From NCBI GenBank assembly GCA_903930095.1, contig CAIYXE010000778.1, forward strand, positions 1 to 10,386: a DNA stretch of 10,386 nt. The letters are read 5' to 3'. The DNA is from an uncultured Hyphomicrobiales bacterium. Its GTDB lineage: Bacteria > Pseudomonadota > Alphaproteobacteria > Rhizobiales > Aestuariivirgaceae. The notes beneath the pieces were generated by a model. That model was not told the DNA's origin, made no database searches, and was given only the letters and a program-made list of their open reading frames with translations. A program made the position numbers and the translations under genes. This document shows positions 1-10,386 of this stretch, piece after piece; position 1 is the first letter of the stretch; every line of letters begins with the position of its first letter.

Positions 1-481
1 CGATGCCGCCGAGCAGCGAGATCACCTGCACATTCTCGAGTTCGCGCGGGGCGAGGGTGGCCAGCGATTCGTAAAGTGTTGCGCCCCAGCCCACGCCCAC
101 TGTCATGTCGTCAGCCAGCGCATCGGACACATACATGCCCGCGGCAACGCCGATCGACTTCGTGACGTTTTCAGGCATCACTGGCTCGGGCACCACCACC
201 GCTTCCTTGAAGCCGAACGCGTCCTTCAGCTGTGCTTCGAGTTCGAAGCATTCGGAAACCTCGCCCTCGATCCAGATCTTGACTTCGCGCTGCTTGATCG
301 CCTCGTTGATGTTGCGCACCACGGTGACGCGCCCGATGCCCAGCCGGTCGGCGATTTCATTCTGGGTCAGGCCTTCGACATAATACATCCACGCGATCCG
401 CATGCGGTTGCGGGCGATGCGGCCCGCACCCCGCTCCGGCGAGGGCGCGCGATGTTTGCGTGAATGAGCATTGTCCAGCAT
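1..481 (-). CDS. SorC-family sugar-responsive transcriptional regulator (partial, C-terminus off left edge)
   Basis: About 160 N-terminal residues are visible on the minus strand, open to the left edge. A short basic leader is followed by a helix-turn-helix at about residues 30-60 containing GLTQNEIADRLGIGRVTVVR, typical of SorC/DeoR-like regulators. From about residue 75 the sequence matches the start of the SorC sugar-binding domain (ELEAQLKDAFGFKEAVVVPE, then GVAAGMYVSDAL and GVGWGATLYE). These proteins bind DNA as oligomers and sense a sugar or, often, a phosphorylated sugar. The ATG at 481-479 is the only in-frame start nearby; the frame stays open upstream but has no close ATG or GTG. 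The gene is divergent from the transporter operon at 948 and separated from it by 466 bp, the classical layout of a local regulator and its target. Full family members have about 310-330 residues, so roughly half is missing. Family call is firm; the effector is unknown. Confidence 0.9.
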   Translation of the reverse strand, partial: MLDNAHSRKHRAPSPERGAGRIARNRMRIAWMYYVEGLTQNEIADRLGIGRVTVVRNINEAIKQREVKIWIEGEVSECFELEAQLKDAFGFKEAVVVPEPVMPENVTKSIGVAAGMYVSDALADDMTVGVGWGATLYESLATLAPRELENVQVISLLGGI

Positions 482-511
482 GGTTGGGACCGCCTGGTTT
501 TTCCAGTTTCC

Positions 512-540
512 ATTGTGTCGTAGGATACTAAACTCTGCAA
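512..540 (-). promoter_or_regulatory. Candidate promoter of the SorC-family regulator gene
   Basis: Read on the minus strand, TTGCAG (535-540) and CACAAT (512-517) are separated by exactly 17 bp, matching a sigma-70-like -35/-10 arrangement with 3/6 and 4/6 consensus bases. Transcription would begin near 505, giving a leader of roughly 25 nt before the ATG at 481. Both hexamers are imperfect, so this is a position-based suggestion only. Confidence 0.25.
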
Positions 541-646
541 GGCAGCACTTTTGTCTCATTCCCAGAGGAACGCTTGCAAATCCGATGTCCGGCGAGGCTA
601 TTCTGCCGTTCAGGCCATGGATCGTCCGTTCCGGTGTCGGGTTTTT

Positions 647-693
647 GCATTGCGAAACTTTGTTGCACTGCCGCAATACGAAACATTTGCACT
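647..693. repeat. Tandem near-direct repeat, candidate upstream operator
   Basis: Two copies of a similar unit follow each other. Copy one begins at 647 (GCATTGCGAAAC, then TTGCACT at 663-669). Copy two begins at 673 (GCAATACGAAAC, then TTGCACT at 687-693). The CGAAAC cores lie at 653-658 and 679-684, 26 bp apart, and the TTGCACT cores are 24 bp apart. The first core lies in TTGCGAAAC (650-658), which occurs inverted as GTTTCGCAA at 839-847. Shared half sites at both ends of the region suggest binding sites for the adjacent SorC-type regulator. Binding is inferred. Confidence 0.5.
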
Positions 694-739
694 CACGCCA
701 GTTATTTAGTACACAAATCTGGCGCAGAAGCTTGCGGAT

Positions 740-759
740 CTCCTGCATCAGAACAGGAG
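740..759. repeat. Short inverted repeat CTCCTG / CAGGAG
   Basis: CTCCTG at 740-745 and CAGGAG at 754-759 form a perfect 6-bp inverted repeat with an 8-nt loop. No T-tract follows, so it is not a typical terminator. If the rightward transcript starts upstream, it would fold in the long leader of the binding-protein mRNA. A six-base repeat in a region this size can arise by chance, so no function is assigned. Confidence 0.3.
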
Positions 760-947: not shown

Positions 948-2522
948 ATGCTGACGACCAAGAATGGGATCACGCGGCGATCGCTGCTCAAATCCACCGC
1001 AGCGGCTGGCGCCGCGCTGGCGGCGGGTACGGGCGGCGTGTCGCTGTTCAACGTGCGCAGCGCCTACTCGCAGAGCCTTCCGAACCCCGCGGACGTGCTC
1101 GCCAAGATCAATGTCGGCAACATGGTCAACAAGGCCTATCGCGAGCAGTACAAGCTCGGCGACAATGACGAACTCTGGGATCCCAAGAAGGACTGGATTC
1201 GCACCGTCGACTGGGAAGCCGTCCGCAAGGAGCACGCCGGCAAGACCGTCCGCTTCGCCGTCGGCGCCGCCGACCGTGAATCGGCTGAAAGCCAGACGCA
1301 GCCCTTCGCCGACCTTTCCGGCATCAAGATCGACGTCGTGTCGATCCCGGACGATGCGATGTACGACAAGGTCGTGGCCGAATTCCTCTCGGGCAACGCC
1401 GGTTTCGACGCCATCCAGTTCTTCTCTCCCTGGCTCGGTGACTTCGCCGCCCAGGGCTTCCTGAAGCCGCTGGACGAATATGTCGCCAAGTGGAACCTGC
1501 CCTTCGACGACTGGTATGAGACGTATCAGCGCAACTACGGCCACTGGGGCGACAAGGGCATCCTCGGCATTCCCTTCGACTGCGACATCCAGCAGGTCCA
1601 CGTCCGTCCGTCGATCCTCAAGAAGATCGGCATCAACGAGGTCGACCGTTGGAACACCATCCCGACCTATGACGAGATGCTGCGCATCGCGCCCGAGCTC
1701 AACAAGGCGGAACCCGGCGTTGCCGGCATCGGCCTGATGGCCGGCCGCGGCTTCTGGGCCACCTATGCCTGGGAGCACATCGCCGCCCAGTACGGCATGA
1801 TGCTGTTCAACGACAAGTGGGAACCGATCTTCAACGGCGATGCCGGCGTGAAGGGCCTCGAAATGCTCGCAGCCCTCTCCAAGCATGCCATCGAAGGCGT
1901 TGCCGCCGCCGACTGGCCGACCAACCGCGCTGCGATGCTCGGTGGCCAGATCGCCTGCAACATCTCCTGGCAGGATACCGGCACCCAGGCGACCCGCCCT
2001 GACCAGTCGAAGATCGGCGACGACATCGTCACCATCTATGAGCCGCGCGTTGCCGGTGGCACCTATGCGCCGCCGAACATCGCTGGCTCGACCTCGGTCG
2101 TGGCCTCGACCTCGCCCGAGCCGGAAGCGGCCTTCCTCATGCTCGCCTACCTGACGACGTCGTCGATCATGGCCATGAACGAAGCCAATGCCAACGGCGT
2201 GGCGCCTGGCACCAAGTCGGTGCTCAACAACGAGAAGCTCCGCTCGGTTTCGCAGCCCGCCAAGGTCTGGGCCGAGTCGCTTGACTATGCCTGGTGCGCG
2301 CCGCGCATCCCCTCGGGCTTCCAGGTCGAGCAGGAAATCGGCTTCCTCGTCAACGAGGTCATCGTCGGCACGAAGAAGCCGAAGGAAGCCCTCGACGAGG
2401 CCGCCGGCAAGGTCAAGGCGATCATGGAAAAGAACGGCTTCTACAAGGGTGCCGATCCCATGAACTTCGCGGCCACCGAGCCGGGCCTGTGGATCGGCAA
2501 GGGCAAGCCGCTTCCGTTCTGA
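948..2522 (+). CDS. Tat-exported sugar ABC transporter substrate-binding protein (family 1)
   Basis: This protein of 524 residues would capture the sugar or polyol in the periplasm and deliver it to the two permeases that follow. The N-terminus carries a Tat signal peptide: TRRSLLK at residues 9-15, an Ala/Gly-rich hydrophobic stretch to about residue 35, and likely cleavage near residue 41. The mature part has the shape of a family 1 solute-binding protein, with a first lobe beginning TVRFAVGAADRESAE, a DKVVAEFLSGNAGFDAIQ segment and a GILGIPFDCDIQQVHVRPSILKKIGI segment typical of carbohydrate binders. It is longer than many family members (about 420-450), partly from an N-terminal extension (residues 42-85) before the first strand. 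Tat export implies folding before secretion. The start is set by GGAGG at 938-942. First gene of a four-gene operon. Family is firm; the ligand cannot be read from sequence. Confidence 0.93.
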   Translation: MLTTKNGITRRSLLKSTAAAGAALAAGTGGVSLFNVRSAYSQSLPNPADVLAKINVGNMVNKAYREQYKLGDNDELWDPKKDWIRTVDWEAVRKEHAGKTVRFAVGAADRESAESQTQPFADLSGIKIDVVSIPDDAMYDKVVAEFLSGNAGFDAIQFFSPWLGDFAAQGFLKPLDEYVAKWNLPFDDWYETYQRNYGHWGDKGILGIPFDCDIQQVHVRPSILKKIGINEVDRWNTIPTYDEMLRIAPELNKAEPGVAGIGLMAGRGFWATYAWEHIAAQYGMMLFNDKWEPIFNGDAGVKGLEMLAALSKHAIEGVAAADWPTNRAAMLGGQIACNISWQDTGTQATRPDQSKIGDDIVTIYEPRVAGGTYAPPNIAGSTSVVASTSPEPEAAFLMLAYLTTSSIMAMNEANANGVAPGTKSVLNNEKLRSVSQPAKVWAESLDYAWCAPRIPSGFQVEQEIGFLVNEVIVGTKKPKEALDEAAGKVKAIMEKNGFYKGADPMNFAATEPGLWIGKGKPLPF

Positions 2523-2536
2523 TCTGACCCCACGTT

Positions 2537-2564
2537 CCGGGGCTCCGCGCAGGCGGGGCCCCGG
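2537..2564 (+). other. Intercistronic stem-loop between binding-protein and permease genes
   Basis: CCGGGGC (2537-2543) pairs perfectly with GCCCCGG (2558-2564). The stem extends inward through one G-U pair and three more G-C pairs, giving 11 pairs around a 6-nt loop. No T-run follows, so full termination is unlikely. In carbohydrate ABC operons a hairpin at this place commonly stabilises the upstream mRNA or attenuates readthrough, giving more binding protein than permease. The structure is seen; the role is inferred. Confidence 0.65.
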
Positions 2565-2593
2565 TCCATTCCCGATCAAAGGATTTTTCCTGC

Positions 2594-3511
2594 ATGACAG
2601 ACGCGGCGCTCGATCTTCCACGAAGGGTGGTCCGCCGCCGTTCGCCGTTCATGCGGAAGGCCTTCCCCTATCTGCTGCTGGCGCCCGCCGTCATCTATCT
2701 CCTGGGGATCACGCTGTGGCCCGGTGCCTTCGCGGTCTACCGCTCGCTGTTTACCGGCAAGTTCAACTGGCAGAACAATTACGTCGGCTTCGAGAACTAT
2801 CGTGTGCTGTTCGGCGACGAACATTTCTGGACGGCGCTGTGGAACACCCTGCTTCTCGGGTCCATAACGCTCGCCATCGAGTTTGCGATTGCCTTGCTGT
2901 TGGCAGCACTCGCCTACCGCTCCCGCTGGGTCAAGGGCTGGCGCATCCTGTTCATGCTGCCCATGCTGTTCATGCCCTCCGCGGTCGGTTTCTTGTGGAA
3001 GCTCCTGTTCAATGACGGCCGTGTCATCTCCGACCTCATGATGCGTTTGGGCCTCGTCGATAGCCCGGTCGACTGGATGGCGCATATCTGGAATGCCCGT
3101 TTCGTCCTCATCGTCACCGACGTCTGGCAGTGGACGCCCTTCCTGTTCATCATTCTCGTGGCCGGCCTTCAGGGCCAGGACAAGGAGGTCGAGGAAGCAG
3201 CACGCCTCGATGGCGCGTCATTTGGACAGATGTTCTGGAACATCTCGCTGCCGCTGCTCCGCCCCATCATCGCGATCGCGCTCGTGCTGCGCGGCATCGA
3301 TCTTCTCAACAACATGTCGGCGGTGGCCATCATCACGCAGGGCTCGCCCGCAGGCTATACAGAAACATTGAGCTACTTCATCTACCGGACCGCCTTCCGC
3401 AGCTTCGACCAGGGCTATGCCGCCGCCGCCTCGGTGCTGTTGCTGATCGCATCCGTCATTCTCGCGCAGATTCTCGTGCGAAAATTCTTCCGGTCGGGAG
3501 CCGAAACATGA
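2594..3511 (+). CDS. Sugar ABC transporter permease, MalF/UgpA type
   Basis: An inner-membrane protein of 305 residues, the first of the two permeases that form the translocation channel. Hydrophobic helices are visible at about residues 24-48, 84-108, 118-138, 169-191, 223-245 and 275-296. The EAA motif that contacts the ATPase is clear at about residues 200-224 (EEAARLDGASFGQMFWNISL followed by PLLRP). The usual N-terminal helix motif (PYLLLAPAVIYLLGITLWP) and the following YVGFENY segment match the carbohydrate-uptake CUT1 permeases. The ATG at 2594 has AAAGGA about 10 nt upstream. It follows the binding-protein gene after 71 nt holding the stem-loop, and its last four bases overlap the next gene. 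Family is firm; substrate is set by the binding protein. Confidence 0.94.
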   Translation: MTDAALDLPRRVVRRRSPFMRKAFPYLLLAPAVIYLLGITLWPGAFAVYRSLFTGKFNWQNNYVGFENYRVLFGDEHFWTALWNTLLLGSITLAIEFAIALLLAALAYRSRWVKGWRILFMLPMLFMPSAVGFLWKLLFNDGRVISDLMMRLGLVDSPVDWMAHIWNARFVLIVTDVWQWTPFLFIILVAGLQGQDKEVEEAARLDGASFGQMFWNISLPLLRPIIAIALVLRGIDLLNNMSAVAIITQGSPAGYTETLSYFIYRTAFRSFDQGYAAAASVLLLIASVILAQILVRKFFRSGAET

Positions 3512-4335
3512 GCAAGCGCATGGAAGGCCCCCGCTGGGGCTGGATTGTATTGACCATCTGGGGGATTTTCTCCTTTCTGCCGATCCTGTTTTTTGCGTCG
3601 ATCGCGCTCCGCCCGCGCAACGAGATCATCGCGCCGGTACCGATCTATTTCCCCACCATCACCATCGAGACCTGGGCCAAGATCTGGAACGAGTGGCCGA
3701 TCGGCCTGTATTTCTACAATTCGATCGTCGCCGTCTCGGGCAGTGTCTTCATTTGCCTGATCCTCGGCGTCCCCGCCGCCTATGCGCTCGCGCGCTACAA
3801 GTTCAGGGGCAACGCCGATATCGGCAATTACATCCTGTCCACCAAGATGATGGCGCCCGCCGCGGTCGTCGTGCCCATGTTCTTCCTGTTCGGCAAGATG
3901 GGGCTGATCGACTCGGTCTGGGCCCTCATGCTCGTCTATGCCGCCATGAACCTGTCGATTGTGGTGTGGATCGTGCGGAGCTACATGATCGACATCCCGC
4001 CCGAGATCGAGGATGCGGCCCGCACCGACGGTGCGACGGACCTTCGCATCCTTTGGGAGATCATCATTCCCATGTGCCTGCCCGGCATCATCACGGCAGC
4101 CGTCATCGCCGCGATCTTTGCCATGAACGAATATCTCTTCACCCTGATCATCGCCTCCAAGAACGCCTATCCGCTCTCCGTGGCGCTGGCCAACTTCTCC
4201 GGCGGCTCCGATGGCATCATCTACAACGCCATCGCGCTTGTGGGCTTCCTCGCCTTCTTCCCTGCGCTGCTTCTGGTGATCCTCATCCAGAACCATCTGT
4301 CGCGTGGCCTCACCATGGGTGCGGTCAAGGGCTGA
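3508..4335 (+). CDS. Sugar ABC transporter permease, MalG/UgpE type
   Basis: This protein of 275 residues is the partner permease of the preceding gene. Helices are visible at about residues 10-32, 70-97, 109-130, 135-158, 192-210 and 240-262. The EAA loop reads EIEDAARTDGATDLRILWEI then IIPMCLPG at about residues 166-193. The C-terminus (HLSRGLTMGAVKG) is the standard MalG-type ending. The ATG at 3508 overlaps the previous stop as ATGA and has GGGAG 7 nt upstream, so the two permeases are translationally coupled. A longer open frame reaches back to 3130, but that part lies over the previous permease gene in another frame and shows no MalG-like sequence, so it is excluded. No ATPase gene follows, which is unusual for CUT1 operons. 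Confidence 0.94.
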   Translation: MSKRMEGPRWGWIVLTIWGIFSFLPILFFASIALRPRNEIIAPVPIYFPTITIETWAKIWNEWPIGLYFYNSIVAVSGSVFICLILGVPAAYALARYKFRGNADIGNYILSTKMMAPAAVVVPMFFLFGKMGLIDSVWALMLVYAAMNLSIVVWIVRSYMIDIPPEIEDAARTDGATDLRILWEIIIPMCLPGIITAAVIAAIFAMNEYLFTLIIASKNAYPLSVALANFSGGSDGIIYNAIALVGFLAFFPALLLVILIQNHLSRGLTMGAVKG

Positions 4336-4350
4336 CGCGGGCAAGCTGAG

Positions 4351-5358
4351 GTGCAGGCGCTGGTCTTACGCGCACCGAACCGGATGGGCCTCGAATCGAT
4401 GCCCGATCCGGTTCCTGGGCCCGGGGGGCTGACCATCCGCATCAAGGCCGCCGCCATCTGCGGCACCGACATGCGGATCTACAGAGGCATCAAGACACGA
4501 GGCGTCCGCCTTCCCGCCGTCCTCGGCCATGAGTTCGCCGGTGTCGTCGACGCGCAGAACGCATCGTCTTTCACCAAGGGGCAGCGCGTGGTGCTTTGCC
4601 CGGCGTTATCCTGCGGCACGTGCCGCCATTGCCAGGCGGGCGCCAGCAACATCTGCGAGAATCTGGCCGCCTATGGCTACGGTCCCGATGGCGGTTTCGC
4701 AGAGTTGGTGAATGTGCCGCGCGCCTTCGTGGAGGCTGGGCATGTTCTCCCCCTGGCCGATGACGTGAGCTTCGAAGAGGCCGCGCTGGCCGAACCGCTG
4801 GCCTGCGTCATCAACGGCCAGGAGGTGATGGGCCTTCAGCCCGGCGCGCATGTCGCCGTGCTGGGGGCAGGGCCCATCGGCTTATTGCATGTGATGCTTG
4901 CCAAGGCGCGCGGCGCTGGCCGCATCAGCGTGGTGCAGAGAAGTGCGGCGCGGCGGGCGGCGGCGCTGGCGGTGGGGGCGGATGAAGCACTGGCGCCGGA
5001 AGAGGCTGGCGGCCTTCAGGCCGATGCCGCGATTGTTGCGGTGGGCTCGCCCGATCTTGCCAATCTCGCGGCCAGGATCACGCGGCCGCGGGGCCTCATC
5101 AATCTCTTTGCCGGTTTCCCGGCGGGCGAACTTCCGCGCTTCGACCTCAACGCCGTTCACTACGGAGAACACCACGTGACGGGCGCTTTCGGGCTGACGC
5201 TGAAGCAGTTCCGCGAGGCGCTGGACCTGATCGCGAGCGGACGGGTGCCGGCTGGCCAGTTCGTCACCCATCGCTTTCCGCTGGAGCAAGCCATGCAAGC
5301 CTTCGCGTTGGCCGAGACCGGCCAGGCGCTGAAGGCGGTGATAACGCCTGGAGCATGA
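4351..5358 (+). CDS. Zinc-dependent medium-chain dehydrogenase, polyol/threonine dehydrogenase-like
   Basis: This 335-residue cytoplasmic MDR-family enzyme would oxidise a secondary alcohol on a polyol or sugar with a nicotinamide cofactor. Catalytic zinc ligands are visible as C37 in CGTD, H60-E61 in LGHEFAG and E148 in AEPLACV. The structural zinc site is complete, with Cys at 88, 91, 94 and 102. The Rossmann fold has GAGPIG at 172-177. After the second strand, where NAD-specific relatives carry Asp, it reads VVQRSAARR, which hints at NADP preference. It starts with GTG at 4351, 15 nt after the permease stop; the next ATG, at 4384, would cut away the conserved first strand (QALVLRAP). The ribosome site is weak. 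Relatives include L-iditol, L-threonine and 2,3-butanediol dehydrogenases, and the substrate cannot be chosen among them by sequence. Operon position suggests it acts on the imported compound. Confidence 0.88.
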   Translation: MQALVLRAPNRMGLESMPDPVPGPGGLTIRIKAAAICGTDMRIYRGIKTRGVRLPAVLGHEFAGVVDAQNASSFTKGQRVVLCPALSCGTCRHCQAGASNICENLAAYGYGPDGGFAELVNVPRAFVEAGHVLPLADDVSFEEAALAEPLACVINGQEVMGLQPGAHVAVLGAGPIGLLHVMLAKARGAGRISVVQRSAARRAAALAVGADEALAPEEAGGLQADAAIVAVGSPDLANLAARITRPRGLINLFAGFPAGELPRFDLNAVHYGEHHVTGAFGLTLKQFREALDLIASGRVPAGQFVTHRFPLEQAMQAFALAETGQALKAVITPGA

Positions 5359-5373
5359 TCTTGCGGGCCTTTC

Positions 5374-5400
5374 CCTTCCCACAGGCGGGAGCGGGGAAGG
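5374..5400. terminator. Weak hairpin in the convergent gap, possible bidirectional terminator
   Basis: CCTTCCC (5374-5380) pairs with GGGAAGG (5394-5400) around a 13-nt loop, in the 57-bp gap between the convergent dehydrogenase and kinase genes. No T-tract follows on either strand, so it is a poor intrinsic terminator. Its position between two operon ends is the main support. Confidence 0.3.
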
Positions 5401-5415
5401 AGCGGGGCAGTGGGC

Positions 5416-6363
5416 CTATCCCTTGGTCTTCGTGGTCTTCATGAAGTTGAGCGTGTGCTCGAAGTCCTCGACCCCCGCCTGGGAGCCCAGGCCCGTGGCG
5501 TTGAGTGCGGACGTCGCCTGGGCGAAGCGGACCGTGGTCTCGGGATCGAAGCCCTTGACCAGTCCCACCGCAAAGCCGGCATCGAAGGCATCGCCGCAGC
5601 CGCAGGTGCACTTCACATCGATGTCGAAGGCAGGCACGCGGAACTTGCGGCCCTCCGCGTCATGGTAATAGGCACCGTCGCCCCCCAACGTCAGCACGCA
5701 GGCCTTGACCCCCATGTCGAGGAAGAAGCGCGCCGTATCTCCGTGGTCTGAAAGGCCGCAGAGCGCCTGAGCCTCCTCGATCGACGGCATGAAATAGTCG
5801 GTATAGGGAAGGACATGGGCAATGGCCGGCAGGTCCTTCGGGCTTCCGGCAAACACGTCGACCGTGGTGATGGCGCCTGCCGCCTTCGCAGCCTTCATGA
5901 CGACGGCACTCTGGCCCTTGTCCATCGCATCCATCAGGCCGACGCCGCCGGCGTGGAACACCTTGGCATCCGTCACCTGCGGGATCATGCGCTCTGTCAC
6001 GAAGAAGTCTGACGTGGCACCCTTGCGATGCAGTGCGGGCCGCGAGCCATCAGCACGCGTCAGCACGATGGAGGAAGACGTTTTCCAGCCGGGCTGGCGC
6101 TGCACGCAAGAGGTATCGACGCCGAAGTGCTGCAGGCGCTGCAGCACCCAGTCCCCCATCAGGTCATCGCCCACACCTGCCACGGCGAGCGTGCTGAGGC
6201 CCATCTTGGCAGCGGCAATCGCCGCCGTTCCGCCCGCGCCCGAGACGGCGAGCGTCAACTCGTCGATGAACACGGTGCCGCCGCCCGGCGGAACTTCGGT
6301 GAAGGGCCAGCCCAGGCAGTCATAGGTATAAAAGCCCATCGAAACATAGTCGTAGCGCGGCAT
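5416..6363 (-). CDS. PfkB-family carbohydrate kinase
   Basis: A 315-residue cytoplasmic sugar kinase of the ribokinase/PfkB family, which transfers phosphate from ATP to a hydroxymethyl group of a sugar or polyol. The N-terminal motif is SGAGGTAAIAAAKMGL at residues 41-56, where the Asn common after GG-x-x-A is replaced (I49). The C-terminal signature reads CTCGCGDAFDAGFAVGL (252-268), with the catalytic base D258; the usual GAGD is GCGD here. The middle has VDVFAGSP, then YTDYFMPSIEEAQAL, matching the conserved Asn/Glu region with S in place of N. The stop is TAG. The ATG at 6363 has a good GGAGG (complement of 6369-6373) 5 nt upstream. It is the last visible gene of the leftward operon, 31 nt after the E2 gene. 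Its altered signature residues fit an unusual substrate. Family is firm, substrate unknown. Confidence 0.92.
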   Translation of the reverse strand: MPRYDYVSMGFYTYDCLGWPFTEVPPGGGTVFIDELTLAVSGAGGTAAIAAAKMGLSTLAVAGVGDDLMGDWVLQRLQHFGVDTSCVQRQPGWKTSSSIVLTRADGSRPALHRKGATSDFFVTERMIPQVTDAKVFHAGGVGLMDAMDKGQSAVVMKAAKAAGAITTVDVFAGSPKDLPAIAHVLPYTDYFMPSIEEAQALCGLSDHGDTARFFLDMGVKACVLTLGGDGAYYHDAEGRKFRVPAFDIDVKCTCGCGDAFDAGFAVGLVKGFDPETTVRFAQATSALNATGLGSQAGVEDFEHTLNFMKTTKTKG

Positions 6364-6394
6364 GAGACCCTCCCCTGATCAGCCGTGCCGGTCT

Positions 6395-7663
6395 TCAGGC
6401 CAGCATCAGCAACGGTTCCTCAATAAGGCCCTTGAAGGCCTGGAGCAACTCGGCCCCTACGGCGCCATCGACCGCGCGATGATCACAGGAGAGCGTGCAG
6501 CCCATCTGCGTAGCGAGCACCGGCTGTCCCTTTATGGGGATGAAGCGCTCGACGGCGGCACCCACCGCAAGAATCGTGGCCTGCGGCGGGTTGATGATGG
6601 CGGTGAACTGCTCGATCCCATACATGCCGAGGTTCGAGATTGCCGCTGAACCGCCTTGATATTCCCCGGGGCTCAGTCTGCGCTCCCGCGCCCGTGCAGC
6701 CAGGTCCTTCATTTCGGCGGAGATGGCGGTGAGCGTTTTCTTCTCTGCCGCGCGGATGACAGGTGTGAAAAGCCCGCCCTCCACCGCGACGGCGACGCCC
6801 ACATCGCTCGCCCGGTGGCGGAGGATGGCATCACCCGCCCAGGTGACATTGGCGGCAGGCACCTTCTGCAAGGCCAGCGCCATGGCCTTGATGATGAAGT
6901 CATTGATCGACAGCTTCCACAGCGGCTTGCCATCCGCACCCATGGGTGCCGACGCATTCAGCTGTTCGCGCGCAGCCTTGAGCCTGTCGATGGTGCAGGT
7001 GACGGAAAGATAGAAATGCGGCACCGTCTGCTTCGATTCGGTCAGCCGTGCGGCGATGGTGCGGCGCATGCCGTCCACCGGCACGGCCTCATAGCTGCCT
7101 TCGGCATAGAGCTTCCGGACGCCCTCATGCGAAGGCACGGCAACTGGCGTGGCAACCGGCGTGGCAATCGCGGGGGAGGGGGCGGGTCTGGCCTCTCCCA
7201 CTGCGCGCACATCCGCCGCCGTGATGCGGCCGCGCGGGCCTGAGCCGGCAATCGCCCCGATGGCAAGCCCTGCCTGCCGCGCCAGCCTGCGGGCGAGCGG
7301 CGTGGCCCGCGGGATGTCGCCGTTGATGGCGTGAGCTTGAACGGCGGGCGCTGCAGCAACCGTGGTGGGCGGCACGGTTTCAGACCGCGGTGCTGCGGCA
7401 CTGGCTGGCGGGGTGACGGCCTCGCCCTCGGCATAGATATAGGCCACGGGCGAGCCGACGGACGCGGTGCCGCCCTCTGCCACCATGACGTTGCGGAGAA
7501 TGCCCTCGGCTGGAGAATCGATCTCCATTGCTGCCTTGTCGGTCTCGATCTCGAAGAGGAGCGCGCCCTTGGCGACCCTGTCGCCGTCCTTGACATGCCA
7601 TTTGCTGATCTTGCCCGTCGCCATGTCCATGTCGACCCGGGGCAGGATGACTTCGACCGCCAT
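6395..7663 (-). CDS. E2 acyltransferase of a 2-oxo-acid/acetoin-type dehydrogenase complex
   Basis: This 422-residue protein is the core of a TPP-dependent dehydrogenase complex and transfers the acyl group from lipoamide to CoA. Domains in order are a single lipoyl domain (about 1-80) with the lipoylated lysine K43 in ETDKAAMEI; an Ala/Pro/Val-rich linker; a peripheral subunit-binding domain (about 117-155, ATPLARRLARQAGL and GRITAADV); a second linker; and the catalytic domain (about 193-422) with the active-site CDHRAVDG at the C-terminus (H395). The start codon is one base after the E1beta stop, with GAAGGGG upstream. The single lipoyl domain suits acetoin-dehydrogenase and alphaproteobacterial PDH E2 proteins alike. 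The genes upstream supply E1; no E3 gene lies in the window, so a shared lipoamide dehydrogenase would have to reoxidise the lipoyl group. The complex type is firm, the acyl substrate is not. Confidence 0.93.
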   Translation of the reverse strand: MAVEVILPRVDMDMATGKISKWHVKDGDRVAKGALLFEIETDKAAMEIDSPAEGILRNVMVAEGGTASVGSPVAYIYAEGEAVTPPASAAAPRSETVPPTTVAAAPAVQAHAINGDIPRATPLARRLARQAGLAIGAIAGSGPRGRITAADVRAVGEARPAPSPAIATPVATPVAVPSHEGVRKLYAEGSYEAVPVDGMRRTIAARLTESKQTVPHFYLSVTCTIDRLKAAREQLNASAPMGADGKPLWKLSINDFIIKAMALALQKVPAANVTWAGDAILRHRASDVGVAVAVEGGLFTPVIRAAEKKTLTAISAEMKDLAARARERRLSPGEYQGGSAAISNLGMYGIEQFTAIINPPQATILAVGAAVERFIPIKGQPVLATQMGCTLSCDHRAVDGAVGAELLQAFKGLIEEPLLMLA

Positions 7664-7664
7664 G

Positions 7665-8657
7665 TCAGACGCGCCCCTTCACCAGGCTACGCAGCCCATC
7701 GACGATGCCCGGAACCTGCGGCACCGCGGCCTTCTCGAGCTGCGGATTGTAGGGGATGGGCGACTCGGCCCCGCCCAGCCGCATGATCGGCGCATCGAGA
7801 TAGTCGAATGCCTCGCTCTCGGCGATGCGCGCGCTGATCTCCGCGCCGATGCCCAGCGACTTGACGCCTTCATAGACGCAGGCCAGCCGCGTGGTCTTCT
7901 TCACGCTTTCGATGATGGTGGCGGTATCGATGGGGCGAAGGGTGCGAAGGTCGATCACCTCGACGTCGATCCCCTCCGCGGCCAGCGTCTCCGCGGCCTC
8001 GAGCGACTTGTGCACCATGATGGAGGTGGCCACCACCGTGACGTCCCGTCCGGGCCTGGCCACATGGGCCTTGCCAATCGGCACGCGGTAGGGTTCCTCC
8101 GGCACGATCCCCTTGGTCTTGTAGAGGAGCTTGTGCTCGAACACCATGACGGGGTCCGGATCGTCGATCGCCGCGAGCAGCAGGCCCTTGATGTCTGCAG
8201 GCGTCGATGGCTGCACGACCTTCAGGCCAGGCACATGCGCCAGCCATGCATCGAGCGATTGGGAATGCTGTGCCGCGGCACCCGTGCCGGATCCGGCGGG
8301 AAAGCGCATGACGAGCGGCACGTTCACCTTGCCGCCCAGCATATAGCGGAGCTTTGCCGCCTGGTTCACGATCTGCTCCATGGCGAGCGTCGCGAAGTCG
8401 GAAAACTGAAACTCGAGCACCGGCTTGCAGCCCGCCAGCGCCGCGCCAACCGCGACGCCCGCCTGGCCCAGTTCCGAGATCGGCGCGTCCATCACGCGGT
8501 CCTCGCCGTAGCGGTGCACGAGGTCGCCCGTGACCTGGAAGGCGCCGCCATAGACGCCGATGTCCTCGCCCATCAGGAAAACAGACGGGTCTGCGTCCAT
8601 CGCCTGCGCCAGCGCTTCCTGGATCGCCTGGGCATAGGTCAGTTCACGTGTGCTCAT
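7665..8657 (-). CDS. TPP-dependent dehydrogenase E1 component, beta subunit
   Basis: This 330-residue subunit pairs with the E1alpha encoded just upstream to form the thiamine-diphosphate enzyme that cleaves or decarboxylates the substrate and acylates the lipoyl group of E2. The family landmarks are present: [13 protein letters not shown] (28-40), DAPISELG with the TPP-activating glutamate E62, EFQFSDFA, the [20 protein letters not shown] block (128-147, with H131) and [13 protein letters not shown] in the transketolase C-terminal domain. Its length is that of ordinary E1beta proteins. Its ATG at 8657 overlaps the E1alpha stop by one base (TGATG), so the two subunits are translationally coupled. 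Acetoin dehydrogenase and pyruvate dehydrogenase E1beta chains are close relatives, and the sequence alone does not decide between an acyloin and a 2-oxo acid. Confidence 0.93.
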
Positions 8658-9673
8658 CAGGCGGCCTCGGGCGAATAGACGTCGCGCGTCACGTCATCCG
8701 GGTCTGGGTCGGTGCCGTTGCGGGCGAATTCGATTCCGGCTGCGATTTCCGCCTCGGCGGCCTGCCTGATCGATCTCACATCCGCCTCGGTGGCGATGCC
8801 ATGCGCCATCAGCTCCGCCTCGAAGCGGGGAATGGGGTCACGCGCCTTCCATTCCTCGATCTCTTCCTTGCTGCGGTAGCGGTTGCGGTCAGACCGTGAG
8901 TGACCGCGGGTGCGGTAGGTCTTGCATTCAACCAGCGTCGGGCCTTCGCCCTTGCGGGCCCGCTCGATCGCCCCGGCAATGGCTTCCTCAACGTCGGCGA
9001 TCGAATTGCCGTCCACGATCACGCCCGGCATGTTGTAGGCGGATGCGCGGTCGGCCACATTGGCCACCGCCATCGAGCGCTCGGTGGAGACCGACATTCC
9101 GTACTTGTTGTTCTCGCAGACGAAGACCACCGGCAGCTTCCAGATCGCCGCCATGTTGAGCGCCTCGTGAAAGGCGCCCTCGTTCGAGGCGCCGTCGCCG
9201 AAGAAGCACATGGCGACGTCATCCCGCTTCTGCTTCTTGATGGCGAGTGCCGCGCCGACCGCGATGGGCAGGCCGCCGCCGACGATGCCGTTGGCGCCCA
9301 GGTTACCCGTCGCCACGTCGGCGATGTGCATGGAGCCTCCACGCCCGCGGCAATAGCCTTCCTCCTTGCCGAAGAACTCGGCGAACATCAGCTTTGGTTC
9401 CGCTCCCTTGCCGATGCAGTGGCCGTGGCCGCGGTGGGTGGAGGTGATGTAATCGCTGTTCCTCAGCGCCATGGTGGCGCCGACGGCCGAAGCCTCCTGC
9501 CCGATCGAGAGGTGCATGGTGCCGTGGATGAGGCCGCGCATATAGGCCTCCTCCGCACCTTCCTCGAAGCGGCGGATCAGGTACATCTTGCGCAGCGCTT
9601 CCTTGAGCTGTGCGGCGCTGTATTTCTGGTAGAAGGGCCGGGCGTTCGGCTTGATGCTGCCAACGGCGTTCAT
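8657..9673 (-). CDS. TPP-dependent dehydrogenase E1 component, alpha subunit
   Basis: A 338-residue E1alpha. The thiamine-diphosphate motif runs from GDG (159-161) through [20 protein letters not shown] to NN (188-189). [13 protein letters not shown] (78-90), [10 protein letters not shown] and [17 protein letters not shown] complete the cofactor and substrate regions, and the late [16 protein letters not shown] loop is intact. The length (338) is like acetoin dehydrogenase AcoA and small PDH alpha chains. The ATG at 9673 overlaps the stop of the SAF-domain oxidoreductase as ATGA, with AAGGAA (complement of 9681-9686) 7 nt upstream. That coupling ties the complex to the oxidoreductase more closely than housekeeping PDH genes would be. 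Acetoin operons usually add acoX or a sigma-54 activator, and none is seen, so the substrate may be another acyloin. Confidence 0.93.
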
Positions 9674-10386
9674 CCGACTGTTCCTTTCAGCATGTCGTCC
9701 TGCCGCTTGCGCAGCATCACGATGCGCGACGTCTCGTCCACGGCGCAGTTCTGGTAGGTGAGGAGCTCGCCCTTGCGGATGGCCCGGATGGCCTTGCCGC
9801 CTTCCAGCAGCCCGCAGGGAACGGCCGCGGACGCCGCCGCGTCCGGCATCGTCATGATCCAGGCACGGTAGGTGTACTCGCCGATCGCATCCAGCCGCTC
9901 ACCCGGCTGCAGGTCCTTCTTGGCAACGGCGCAGACTTCGGCGCTCGGCACGTCGAGCGGCTGCATGTCAGCGGTTCCATAAAGCACGGCGCGCGCGCAG
10001 GAGAGCGGCACCTCGAGGCTGGTCAGGTGGTAGGGGCGGTAGAAGGTGTAGTAGGGGCCGGGGCCCAGCTTCAGGTCGTGCATGCGCTCACGCACCCGCG
10101 GATGAGACATTTCGGCGATCACGAACACACCTGGCGCAACACCCTTGCCGATCGAGTAGTCGACCACGCCCTTGCGCGAGAGAACGCCGCCGTCCGCCTT
10201 CGGGCACAGCACCTTTTCCAGATCGGTGAGGCCGGCCGCAGGACCGTGCATGCCCGGGCAGTCGGGCACCAGCCCGGTGGCGTTGGCGACAGCCGCCATC
10301 TCGACCATGGTCTTCGATCCGTCGACGAACTCCACCAGCATGCGCGGGTTCATGTTCCGGCGCTTCGCCTCCTCCATGTAGAGGTC
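9670..10386 (-). CDS. SAF-domain, homoserine-dehydrogenase-like oxidoreductase, DXR-like (DRL) family (partial, N-terminus off right edge)
   Basis: The C-terminal 238 residues are visible, open to the right edge; the methionine at 10377 is internal, as DLY precedes it in frame. The fragment has the central catalytic/dimer region (MLVEFVDGSKTMVEMAAVAN, GVVDYSIGKGVAPGVFVI, TFYRPYHLTSLEVPL) and a C-terminal SAF-like domain from about residue 150 (AEVCAVAKKDLQPGERLDAI, later IRKGELLTY). From memory this resembles the Brucella DRL protein, which catalyses the DXP-to-MEP step in place of DXR, and the wider family often annotated homoserine dehydrogenase; I could not run an alignment. Full members have about 430-440 residues, so the NAD(P)-binding Rossmann domain is missing here. 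Its stop overlaps the E1alpha start (ATGA). It may act in biosynthesis as DRL does, or in a catabolic direction given its neighbours. Confidence 0.82.
   Translation of the reverse strand, partial: DLYMEEAKRRNMNPRMLVEFVDGSKTMVEMAAVANATGLVPDCPGMHGPAAGLTDLEKVLCPKADGGVLSRKGVVDYSIGKGVAPGVFVIAEMSHPRVRERMHDLKLGPGPYYTFYRPYHLTSLEVPLSCARAVLYGTADMQPLDVPSAEVCAVAKKDLQPGERLDAIGEYTYRAWIMTMPDAAASAAVPCGLLEGGKAIRAIRKGELLTYQNCAVDETSRIVMLRKRQDDMLKGTVG

Follow-up and report, generated by a model that had tools for sequence, protein, structure and literature searches.

The closest described counterpart of the system reported here is the DXR-II (also called DRL) of Brucella abortus (PDB entry 3upy), which is described as an isoprenoid biosynthetic enzyme acting on 1-deoxy-D-xylulose 5-phosphate (DXP) and 2-C-methyl-D-erythritol 4-phosphate (MEP). 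In a 10,386-nucleotide stretch of DNA from an uncultured Hyphomicrobiales bacterium of the Aestuariivirgaceae (GenBank assembly GCA_903930095.1, contig CAIYXE010000778.1), hereafter the window, a gene of the same family, with the family residues that the window covers kept and the same DXP/MEP chemistry proposed for its product, instead lies in a putative operon with the E1 and E2 subunits of a dehydrogenase complex and a PfkB-family kinase, with an importer alongside. With slightly better than even confidence, we read this cluster, versions of which occur in many soil bacteria, as serving the catabolism of a branched C5 polyol, with 2-C-methyl-D-erythritol as the most likely candidate; the opening steps of isoprenoid synthesis would then run in reverse.

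The E1α/E1β/E2 build is common to the window and to the pyruvate and acetoin dehydrogenase complexes. Acetoin dehydrogenase oxidatively cleaves a methyl ketol into acetyl-CoA and an aldehyde, a reaction that resembles the cleavage proposed here, although the proposed substrate is DXP; moreover, outside the genus the E1/E2 of the window type usually stands beside DXR-II, and no acetoin genes are found among the families of the window. A second relative is the glucitol (sorbitol) or gut/srl operon, which shares the IIC, IIB and IIA components of a phosphotransferase system (PTS), GutM and a sugar-binding regulator with loci related to the window, whereas the window has ATP-binding cassette (ABC) genes and PfkB instead; in those loci DXR-II takes what we presume to be the place of the sorbitol-6-phosphate dehydrogenase. 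Another source of DXP that does not involve DXS, the methylthioadenosine (MTA)-isoprenoid shunt described in section 11 of PMC10663253, employs a RuBisCO-like isomerase and a cupin and runs toward isoprenoids. The apionate pathway was considered as a further analog. No description of such a pathway was found in the open-licence PMC literature (growth on methylerythritol or deoxyxylulose, association of DXR-II and a PTS, 2-methyltetrol biodegradation), judged on the titles and abstract openings of the top-ranked matches, and the available text of a 2026 review (PMC13001223) mentions DXR-II once and has no word starting with 'catabol'. The enzyme families are known; their combination and the proposed direction are new.

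The first-pass annotation of this DNA had proposed that MEP is converted to DXP and then to acetyl-CoA and glyceraldehyde 3-phosphate. Comparison between bacteria supports this route through a recurrent gene quartet, the exchange of a PTS for the kinase, spare DXR-II copies and copies on plasmids. Gene identities, conserved order, module swapping and the further DXR gene are read from sequence, most of the evidence being gene neighbourhood, and from these we infer the substrate, the direction, the specificity of E1 and the ligand of the regulator.

The DXR-II/E1/E2 quartet

The window is the entire contig (C778, 10.4 kb) of an Aestuariivirga-type draft genome (3.9 Mb, split over 820 contigs) with a completeness of 89.8% and a contamination of 5.8%, and the open reading frames (ORFs) of a SorC-family regulator and of DXR-II run off its opposite ends. 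All genes named in the first-pass annotation are present as long ORFs, with families placed by Pfam, and its comparison of a SAF-domain protein to DRL is borne out. The gene in question (9670–10386, minus strand) encodes the C-terminal 238 residues, the N-terminus lying past the contig end, and contains DRL_cat (PF21135, 178.7 bits) and SAF (PF08666, 24.3 bits), both above cut-off. Its only PDB matches are 3upl (E = 6e-105) and 3upy (E = 7e-105), the latter being the B. abortus DXR-II (PMC3847144, Figure 3 legend). The same paper contrasts DXR-II with two look-alike families (DLO1/2), naming Thr229 and Arg320 as divergent and important for activity. Four of the nine positions taken from it fall inside the window (Thr229, His250, Arg320 and Tyr322) and all are kept; Lys191 and Lys193 would lie past the contig end and are present in 99/99 relatives compared. 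All nine positions are invariant in the 67 relatives with an adjacent E1α, the outgroup (L064, L066, L069 and L204) has S and K, respectively, at positions 229 and 320, and some DXR-II copies without E1 vary elsewhere, such as that of Ligilactobacillus (L160) at 174 and 322. In a tree of 99 relatives (67 of them E1α-linked), from which the window protein, Brucella and the published DLO sequences are absent, the genus orthologs of the window protein fall among the DXR-II-type sequences and separate from the four distant outgroup members. Judged by its domains, PDB matches and kept residues, the DRL-like gene of the window is a DXR-II.

Four further genes follow DXR-II on the minus strand. E1α (8657–9673) matches E1_dh at 301 bits and its translation contains GDG-X26-NN, which we take to be the thiamine-diphosphate motif; E1β (7665–8657), the other subunit of this thiamine-diphosphate enzyme, has Transket_pyr and Transketolase_C domains; the E2 acyltransferase (6395–7663) has lipoyl, E3-binding and catalytic Pfam domains and contains ETDKA and HRAVDG; and the kinase (5416–6363; PfkB, 134 bits), a proposed methylerythritol 4-kinase, contains GCGDAF and has YdjH and sulfofructose kinase as its closest PDB entries. 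Because the five genes are arranged head to tail with overlaps of at most 4 bases and gaps of at most 31, they look like one operon, and a promoter and terminator scan gave no signal above chance.

Genome contigs were scanned with six aligned DXR-II sequences, which matched at least 593 stretches, at least 530 of them encoding relatives. The best 80 loci were kept on DXR-II similarity alone; some share a genome, the counts include related strains and many genomes are drafts. A quartet locus was defined by an E1α within 600 bases after DXR-II on the same strand; as the loci were found through DXR-II, the counts are silent on how often E1/E2 occurs without it. E1α lies directly downstream of DXR-II in 62/80 loci, and E1β and E2 follow in 61; the exception, L112, has only about 1 kb of sequence past DXR-II. 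Since the four genes recur together in 61 loci selected on DXR-II alone, chance neighbourhood is unlikely and was rejected as an explanation. The hosts belong to the Alphaproteobacteria and Burkholderiales and include Aestuariivirga, Taklimakanibacter, a Rhodospirillaceae isolate, Mesorhizobium, Ensifer, Rhizobium, Shinella, Bosea, Phyllobacterium, Nitratireductor, Ochrobactrum-type species, Paraburkholderia and Burkholderia. The identities of DXR-II and E1α are correlated (r = 0.88, 67 loci), a correlation that shared descent alone would also yield. An adjacent E1α was found at none of ten distant family loci (L041, L042, L064–L071; 31–37% identical, several with short flanks) and at none of 11 loci of a second DXR-II class of the genus (class B, defined below); at one of the latter, L062, an E1 pair (42–45%) lies about 5 kb away.

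The recurrence of the quartet also bears on whether the cluster is no more than an ordinary operon for pyruvate or acetoin dehydrogenase, with sugar genes nearby that are unrelated to it. The 2-oxo acid dehydrogenase build (E1α, E1β and three-domain E2, by Pfam) is present, and against the NCBIfam pyruvate dehydrogenase models E1α scores 388.1 versus a cut-off of 393.85, E2 425.1 versus 445, and E1β 395.6 versus 321 for the subfamily, which it exceeds, and 394.8 versus 454 for the equivalog. With human pyruvate dehydrogenase as the best PDB match of E1α, the label 'acetoin-type' given in the first-pass annotation is not upheld. These scores would suit a pyruvate dehydrogenase, but adjacency to DXR-II is conserved in 61/80 loci and the window's own genome holds five further E1α matches (40–48% identity), and we regard an ordinary operon as highly improbable.

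Redundancy of DXR-II was assessed in the genomes of 18 quartet loci, chosen for spread among the 62, by searching for DXR-I and DXR-II. Eight genomes (G042, G044–G048, G053 and G058) have a single DXR-II together with DXR-I, and nine have two or more DXR-II-family matches, eight of these without DXR-I and the ninth, Bosea (G055), with it; a 2.6-Mb draft (G057) has one DXR-II and no DXR-I. Unlike the isoprenoid-only description of DXR-II, then, the quartet copy is not the sole DXR in 17/18 genomes, the second DXR-II of eight being assumed active, and having a single DXR-II is associated with the presence of DXR-I (Fisher p = 4e-4, 17 genomes). Because of this further gene, the quartet DXR-II looks spare for isoprenoids in most hosts examined, and a housekeeping isoprenoid role was rejected as a general rule, with the exception of ten Aestuariivirga genomes. 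Among the extra DXR-II loci, no module is seen at L198, L202 and L205, and L196 and L197 have only a haloacid dehalogenase (HAD)-family gene together with a weak match to an ATPase. A galactitol-type PTS is found at L199 and the class B setting at L201, while L203 is another quartet, L204 holds a distant family member, and L200 and L124 are the same quartet. According to section 5 of PMC3847144, M. loti MAFF303099 and O. anthropi ATCC 49188 each have two DXR-II paralogs, all shown to be functional; the related genomes G052 and G049 each have one quartet copy and one other DXR-II, so by orthology between related strains the quartet copy was probably among the paralogs tested. The genome of the window, for which the first-pass annotation had suggested looking for another dxr or drl, holds a second DXR-II (L005/L040, contig C652) that carries one in-frame TAG, being either a pseudogene or a draft error.

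Other genes were noticed around the quartet. In Rhizobium sp. B230/85 (L164:15792-19296), thiamine genes, from thiC to thiazole synthase, adjoin the cluster, DXP also being a thiamine precursor. In Bosea (L131:4320-5552), an ORF that by eye resembles phosphopentomutase lies between an ABC importer and the quartet, and a protein of about 205 residues with no assigned function (L050:11672-12289 and relatives, 25–64% identity) occurs near many clusters, also on plasmids.

Uptake and phosphorylation modules

The 62 quartet loci, 41 with 9 kb on both sides and 21 with incomplete flanks, differ in the genes that would supply the substrate. A glucitol-type (Gut) PTS occurs at 20, a galactitol-type (Gat) PTS at seven, PfkB at 16, a CUT1 binding protein at 13, SorC at 40 and E3 at six. 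Gut PTS and PfkB occur together at none of the 62 (P = 8e-5 by counting in the 41 full-flank loci, kinship ignored); within the genus, G019 carries the Gut PTS without the cluster kinase, and the window has no Gut PTS genes by Pfam. A polyol PTS imports its substrate as a polyol phosphate. Since PfkB and the Gut PTS replace each other, PfkB would appear to do the same job, which suggests that the substrate is a polyol.

The importers differ between loci, and the specificities of the kinase, PTS and DXR-II are not fixed by sequence, so the substrate might instead be a different branched polyol, either another 2-methyltetrol stereoisomer or 2-C-hydroxymethyl-erythritol (apiitol), which would give another ketose phosphate and acyl-CoA. 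The functional paralogs of M. loti and O. anthropi (PMC3847144), which probably include the quartet copy, argue against this alternative, and we think it quite unlikely.

In the window, the importer genes lie on the plus strand. The ABC solute-binding protein (948–2522, ATG at 948; SBP_bac_1, 93 bits) has a possible twin-arginine translocation (Tat) signal, the match being weak (20.3 versus a cut-off of 22.7), and relatives 59–82% identical in related clusters. The two permeases (2594–3511, and 3508–4335, the first Met of an ORF at 3505–4335) match BPD_transp_1 and are conserved across clusters. No ABC ATPase is encoded within the window; at 11/14 other class C loci of the genus (class C being the class of the window), DXR-II is preceded by a divergent gene for a UgpC-like ATPase, which is missing at L045, L046 and L057. 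The permeases are followed by an accessory Zn-dependent alcohol dehydrogenase of the medium-chain dehydrogenase/reductase (MDR) type (4351–5358, plus strand; ADH_N and ADH_zinc_N), which the first-pass annotation had drawn into the pathway. No MDR gene was found between permease and kinase in the clusters of relatives, although relatives at 48–50% lie near two Shinella clusters (L154 and L162), and MDR was rejected as a core member because its position is not conserved. At the end far from DXR-II lies the SorC-family regulator (2–748, minus strand; Sugar-bind, 66 bits; best NCBIfam match DeoR repressor, then LsrR), its C-terminal part cut by the contig end, with a helix-turn-helix from about residue 115, so that the real start may fall within the ORF.

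Among the 60 of 111 plasmid-collection records that were listed, 13 were opened, and the quartet is present on eight of the nine opened alphaproteobacterial plasmids (H2, H7, H12, H15, H17, H18, H19 and H20; not H4). On pRM41A of Sinorhizobium meliloti Rm41, typed as conjugative, the kinase, ABC genes, SorC, DXR-II, E1α, E1β, E2, lpdA and lipA lie within about 15 kb. The three Firmicutes loci opened, from Listeria innocua, Ligilactobacillus salivarius and Enterococcus raffinosus (the last by similarity only), all combine DXR-II with a Gut PTS, GutM and a sugar-binding regulator. In L. salivarius (L160:13871-16530), fsa and tkt (transketolase) come after DXR-II and the glucitol PTS, no more than a hint that the ketose phosphate may be cleaved differently there. 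A HAD-family hydrolase gene recurs (L163:13858-14544, L196, L197 and several loci of Mesorhizobium and Shinella), both beside glucitol PTS genes and close to some of the DXR-II copies that lack E1/E2. A family member from Deinococcus (36%) adjoins polysaccharide genes.

Aestuariivirga and the alternatives

Within Aestuariivirga, DXR-II of class C (that of the window and those 70–87% identical to it) occurs in 15 genomes and class B (61–65%) in 11, in eight of these beside an FGGY kinase. The class B gene stands next to a divergent FGGY kinase at L037, L040, L059, L061 and L201; at four of these (L037, L040, L059 and L201) ABC importer genes are also present, together with another FGGY gene that is xylulokinase-like, and this may be a further salvage locus. 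DXR-I was found in none of the 25 genus genomes and IspG in all 25, while cluster-type E1α (68% identity or more) is present in 15 of the 21 genomes examined. Ten of the 25 (G004, G006, G008, G009, G011, G012, G016, G021, G022 and G024) have no strong DXS match; the absence was upheld by protein query in the six so checked, and seven of the ten are at least 90% complete and three 66–82%. The cluster kinase is present in 9/10 DXS-less versus 8/15 DXS-bearing genomes (Fisher p = 0.09, suggestive only). In one DXS-less genome, the 99%-complete G012, DXR-II and E2 persist only as remnants at L078 (49 and 112 residues, respectively), and DXR-I and the cluster kinase are missing; IspG is nonetheless present.

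These genomes could be taken to support a biosynthetic reading, in which the cluster E1 is tied to isoprenoid supply in DXS-less strains: IspG persists where DXS is missing, six of the seven DXS-less genomes examined have cluster-type E1α, dxs lies at three DXR-II loci, and aceE mutants make DXP and can replace DXS, as a passage of PMC3424233 reports. Such a reading gives no evident role to the importer, the kinase or PTS, E2, E3, lipA and SorC, and it meets the further DXR gene in nearly all quartet genomes examined; we hold it to be very unlikely.

Free 1-deoxy-D-xylulose might also be the substrate, being imported, phosphorylated to DXP and cleaved by E1/E2, with DXR-II merely diverting DXP to MEP. 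At L075 (G010) and L077 (G008), E1, E2, PfkB and SorC do stand without a neighbouring DXR-II, the three dxs genes are again compatible, and Escherichia coli XylB phosphorylates deoxyxylulose, as PMC3424233 states. However, a class B DXR-II exists elsewhere in G010, and G008, 66% complete, has an E1α that looks interrupted; the module that can stand in for the kinase is a polyol PTS, and the three Firmicutes loci pair DXR-II with that PTS and have no E1/E2. The entry of free deoxyxylulose, which the first-pass annotation had allowed for, is the less likely case, and we consider it unlikely.

Several observations weigh against catabolism of methylerythritol. In the genus, E1α adjoins DXR-II in just seven of the 15 genomes that have the cluster-type gene (G000, G005, G009 and G016–G019); DXR-II lies a few kilobases from E1α in G003 and G020 and elsewhere in G004, G006 and G011, and no class C DXR-II was found in G007, G008 and G010. 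Class C is the only DXR found in ten genus genomes, so that it presumably also serves isoprenoids there. The sole strong DXS of G003, G015 and G020 sits at a DXR-II locus (L046 in G015, L050 and L052 in the other two), an arrangement that fits the biosynthetic reading as well; at L046 (G015), DXR-II is found with PfkB and dxs, and cluster-type E1α is missing from that genome. In the genome scan, 18/80 DXR-II loci lack an adjoining E1α; at the identity limits used, none of these has a Gut or Gat PTS, a CUT1 binding protein or a SorC gene, four having less than 4 kb downstream, while PfkB is found at L090 and L091 and an E2 fragment at L098. Nine full-flank Mesorhizobium quartets have neither a Gut or Gat PTS nor PfkB or CUT1, some of their ORFs resembling another ABC importer, and E1/E2 is absent from all three opened Firmicutes loci. 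Finally, the DXR equilibrium favours MEP.

Proposed route and its meaning

In the catabolic route that we favour, the ABC importer would take up methylerythritol and the PfkB kinase would phosphorylate it to MEP, two steps that elsewhere a glucitol-type PTS would perform as one. DXR-II, running oxidatively, would oxidise and rearrange MEP to DXP. E1 would then attack the C2 ketone of DXP and split the C2–C3 bond, releasing glyceraldehyde 3-phosphate and keeping a two-carbon adduct at the acetyl level on its thiamine diphosphate, from which the lipoyl arm of E2 would pass the acetyl group to CoA, E2 and E3 completing acetyl-CoA and NADH. SorC may detect a phosphorylated intermediate. The Firmicutes would need another cleavage, since the opened loci are without E1/E2. 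The chemistry has been described in the opposite sense: PMC3424233 includes the statement that pyruvate dehydrogenase makes deoxyxylulose from pyruvate and glyceraldehyde, and cites a 1986 paper whose title names 1-deoxyketoses from pyruvate and acetoin dehydrogenases.

More tentatively, and with appreciably less confidence than in the route itself, DXR-II may be catabolic at root, serving methylerythritol phosphate in Firmicutes, Alphaproteobacteria and Betaproteobacteria through a swappable module for polyol uptake and phosphorylation; its isoprenoid role in bacteria lacking DXR-I would have been recruited later, which would account for active DXR-II where the MEP pathway is missing, and in Aestuariivirga scavenged methylerythritol, phosphorylated by PfkB, would replace DXS.

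If true, the catabolic route would account for the scattered occurrence and frequent redundancy of DXR-II and for its activity in Finegoldia, where other MEP and mevalonate genes are missing, and in Chloroflexus, a mevalonate user (PMC3847144, section 7); section 9 of the same paper proposes gene dosage or fosmidomycin tolerance instead. The route would also be a sink for methylerythritol, of which plants are sources, and perhaps for 2-methyltetrols, which are markers of isoprene aerosol and include 2-methylerythritol (PMC7377252). The proposal is directly testable in the cultured hosts A. litoralis KCTC 52945, S. meliloti Rm41 and S. fredii NGR234. According to PMC10663253, 181 of 4,400 species miss only DXS, and 172 of these are unexplained; if the proposal holds, DXS-less bacteria might obtain their MEP or DXP in this way, which can be tested, and on the more tentative reading the methylerythritol scavenged in Aestuariivirga would be one answer to how such bacteria obtain their isoprenoids.

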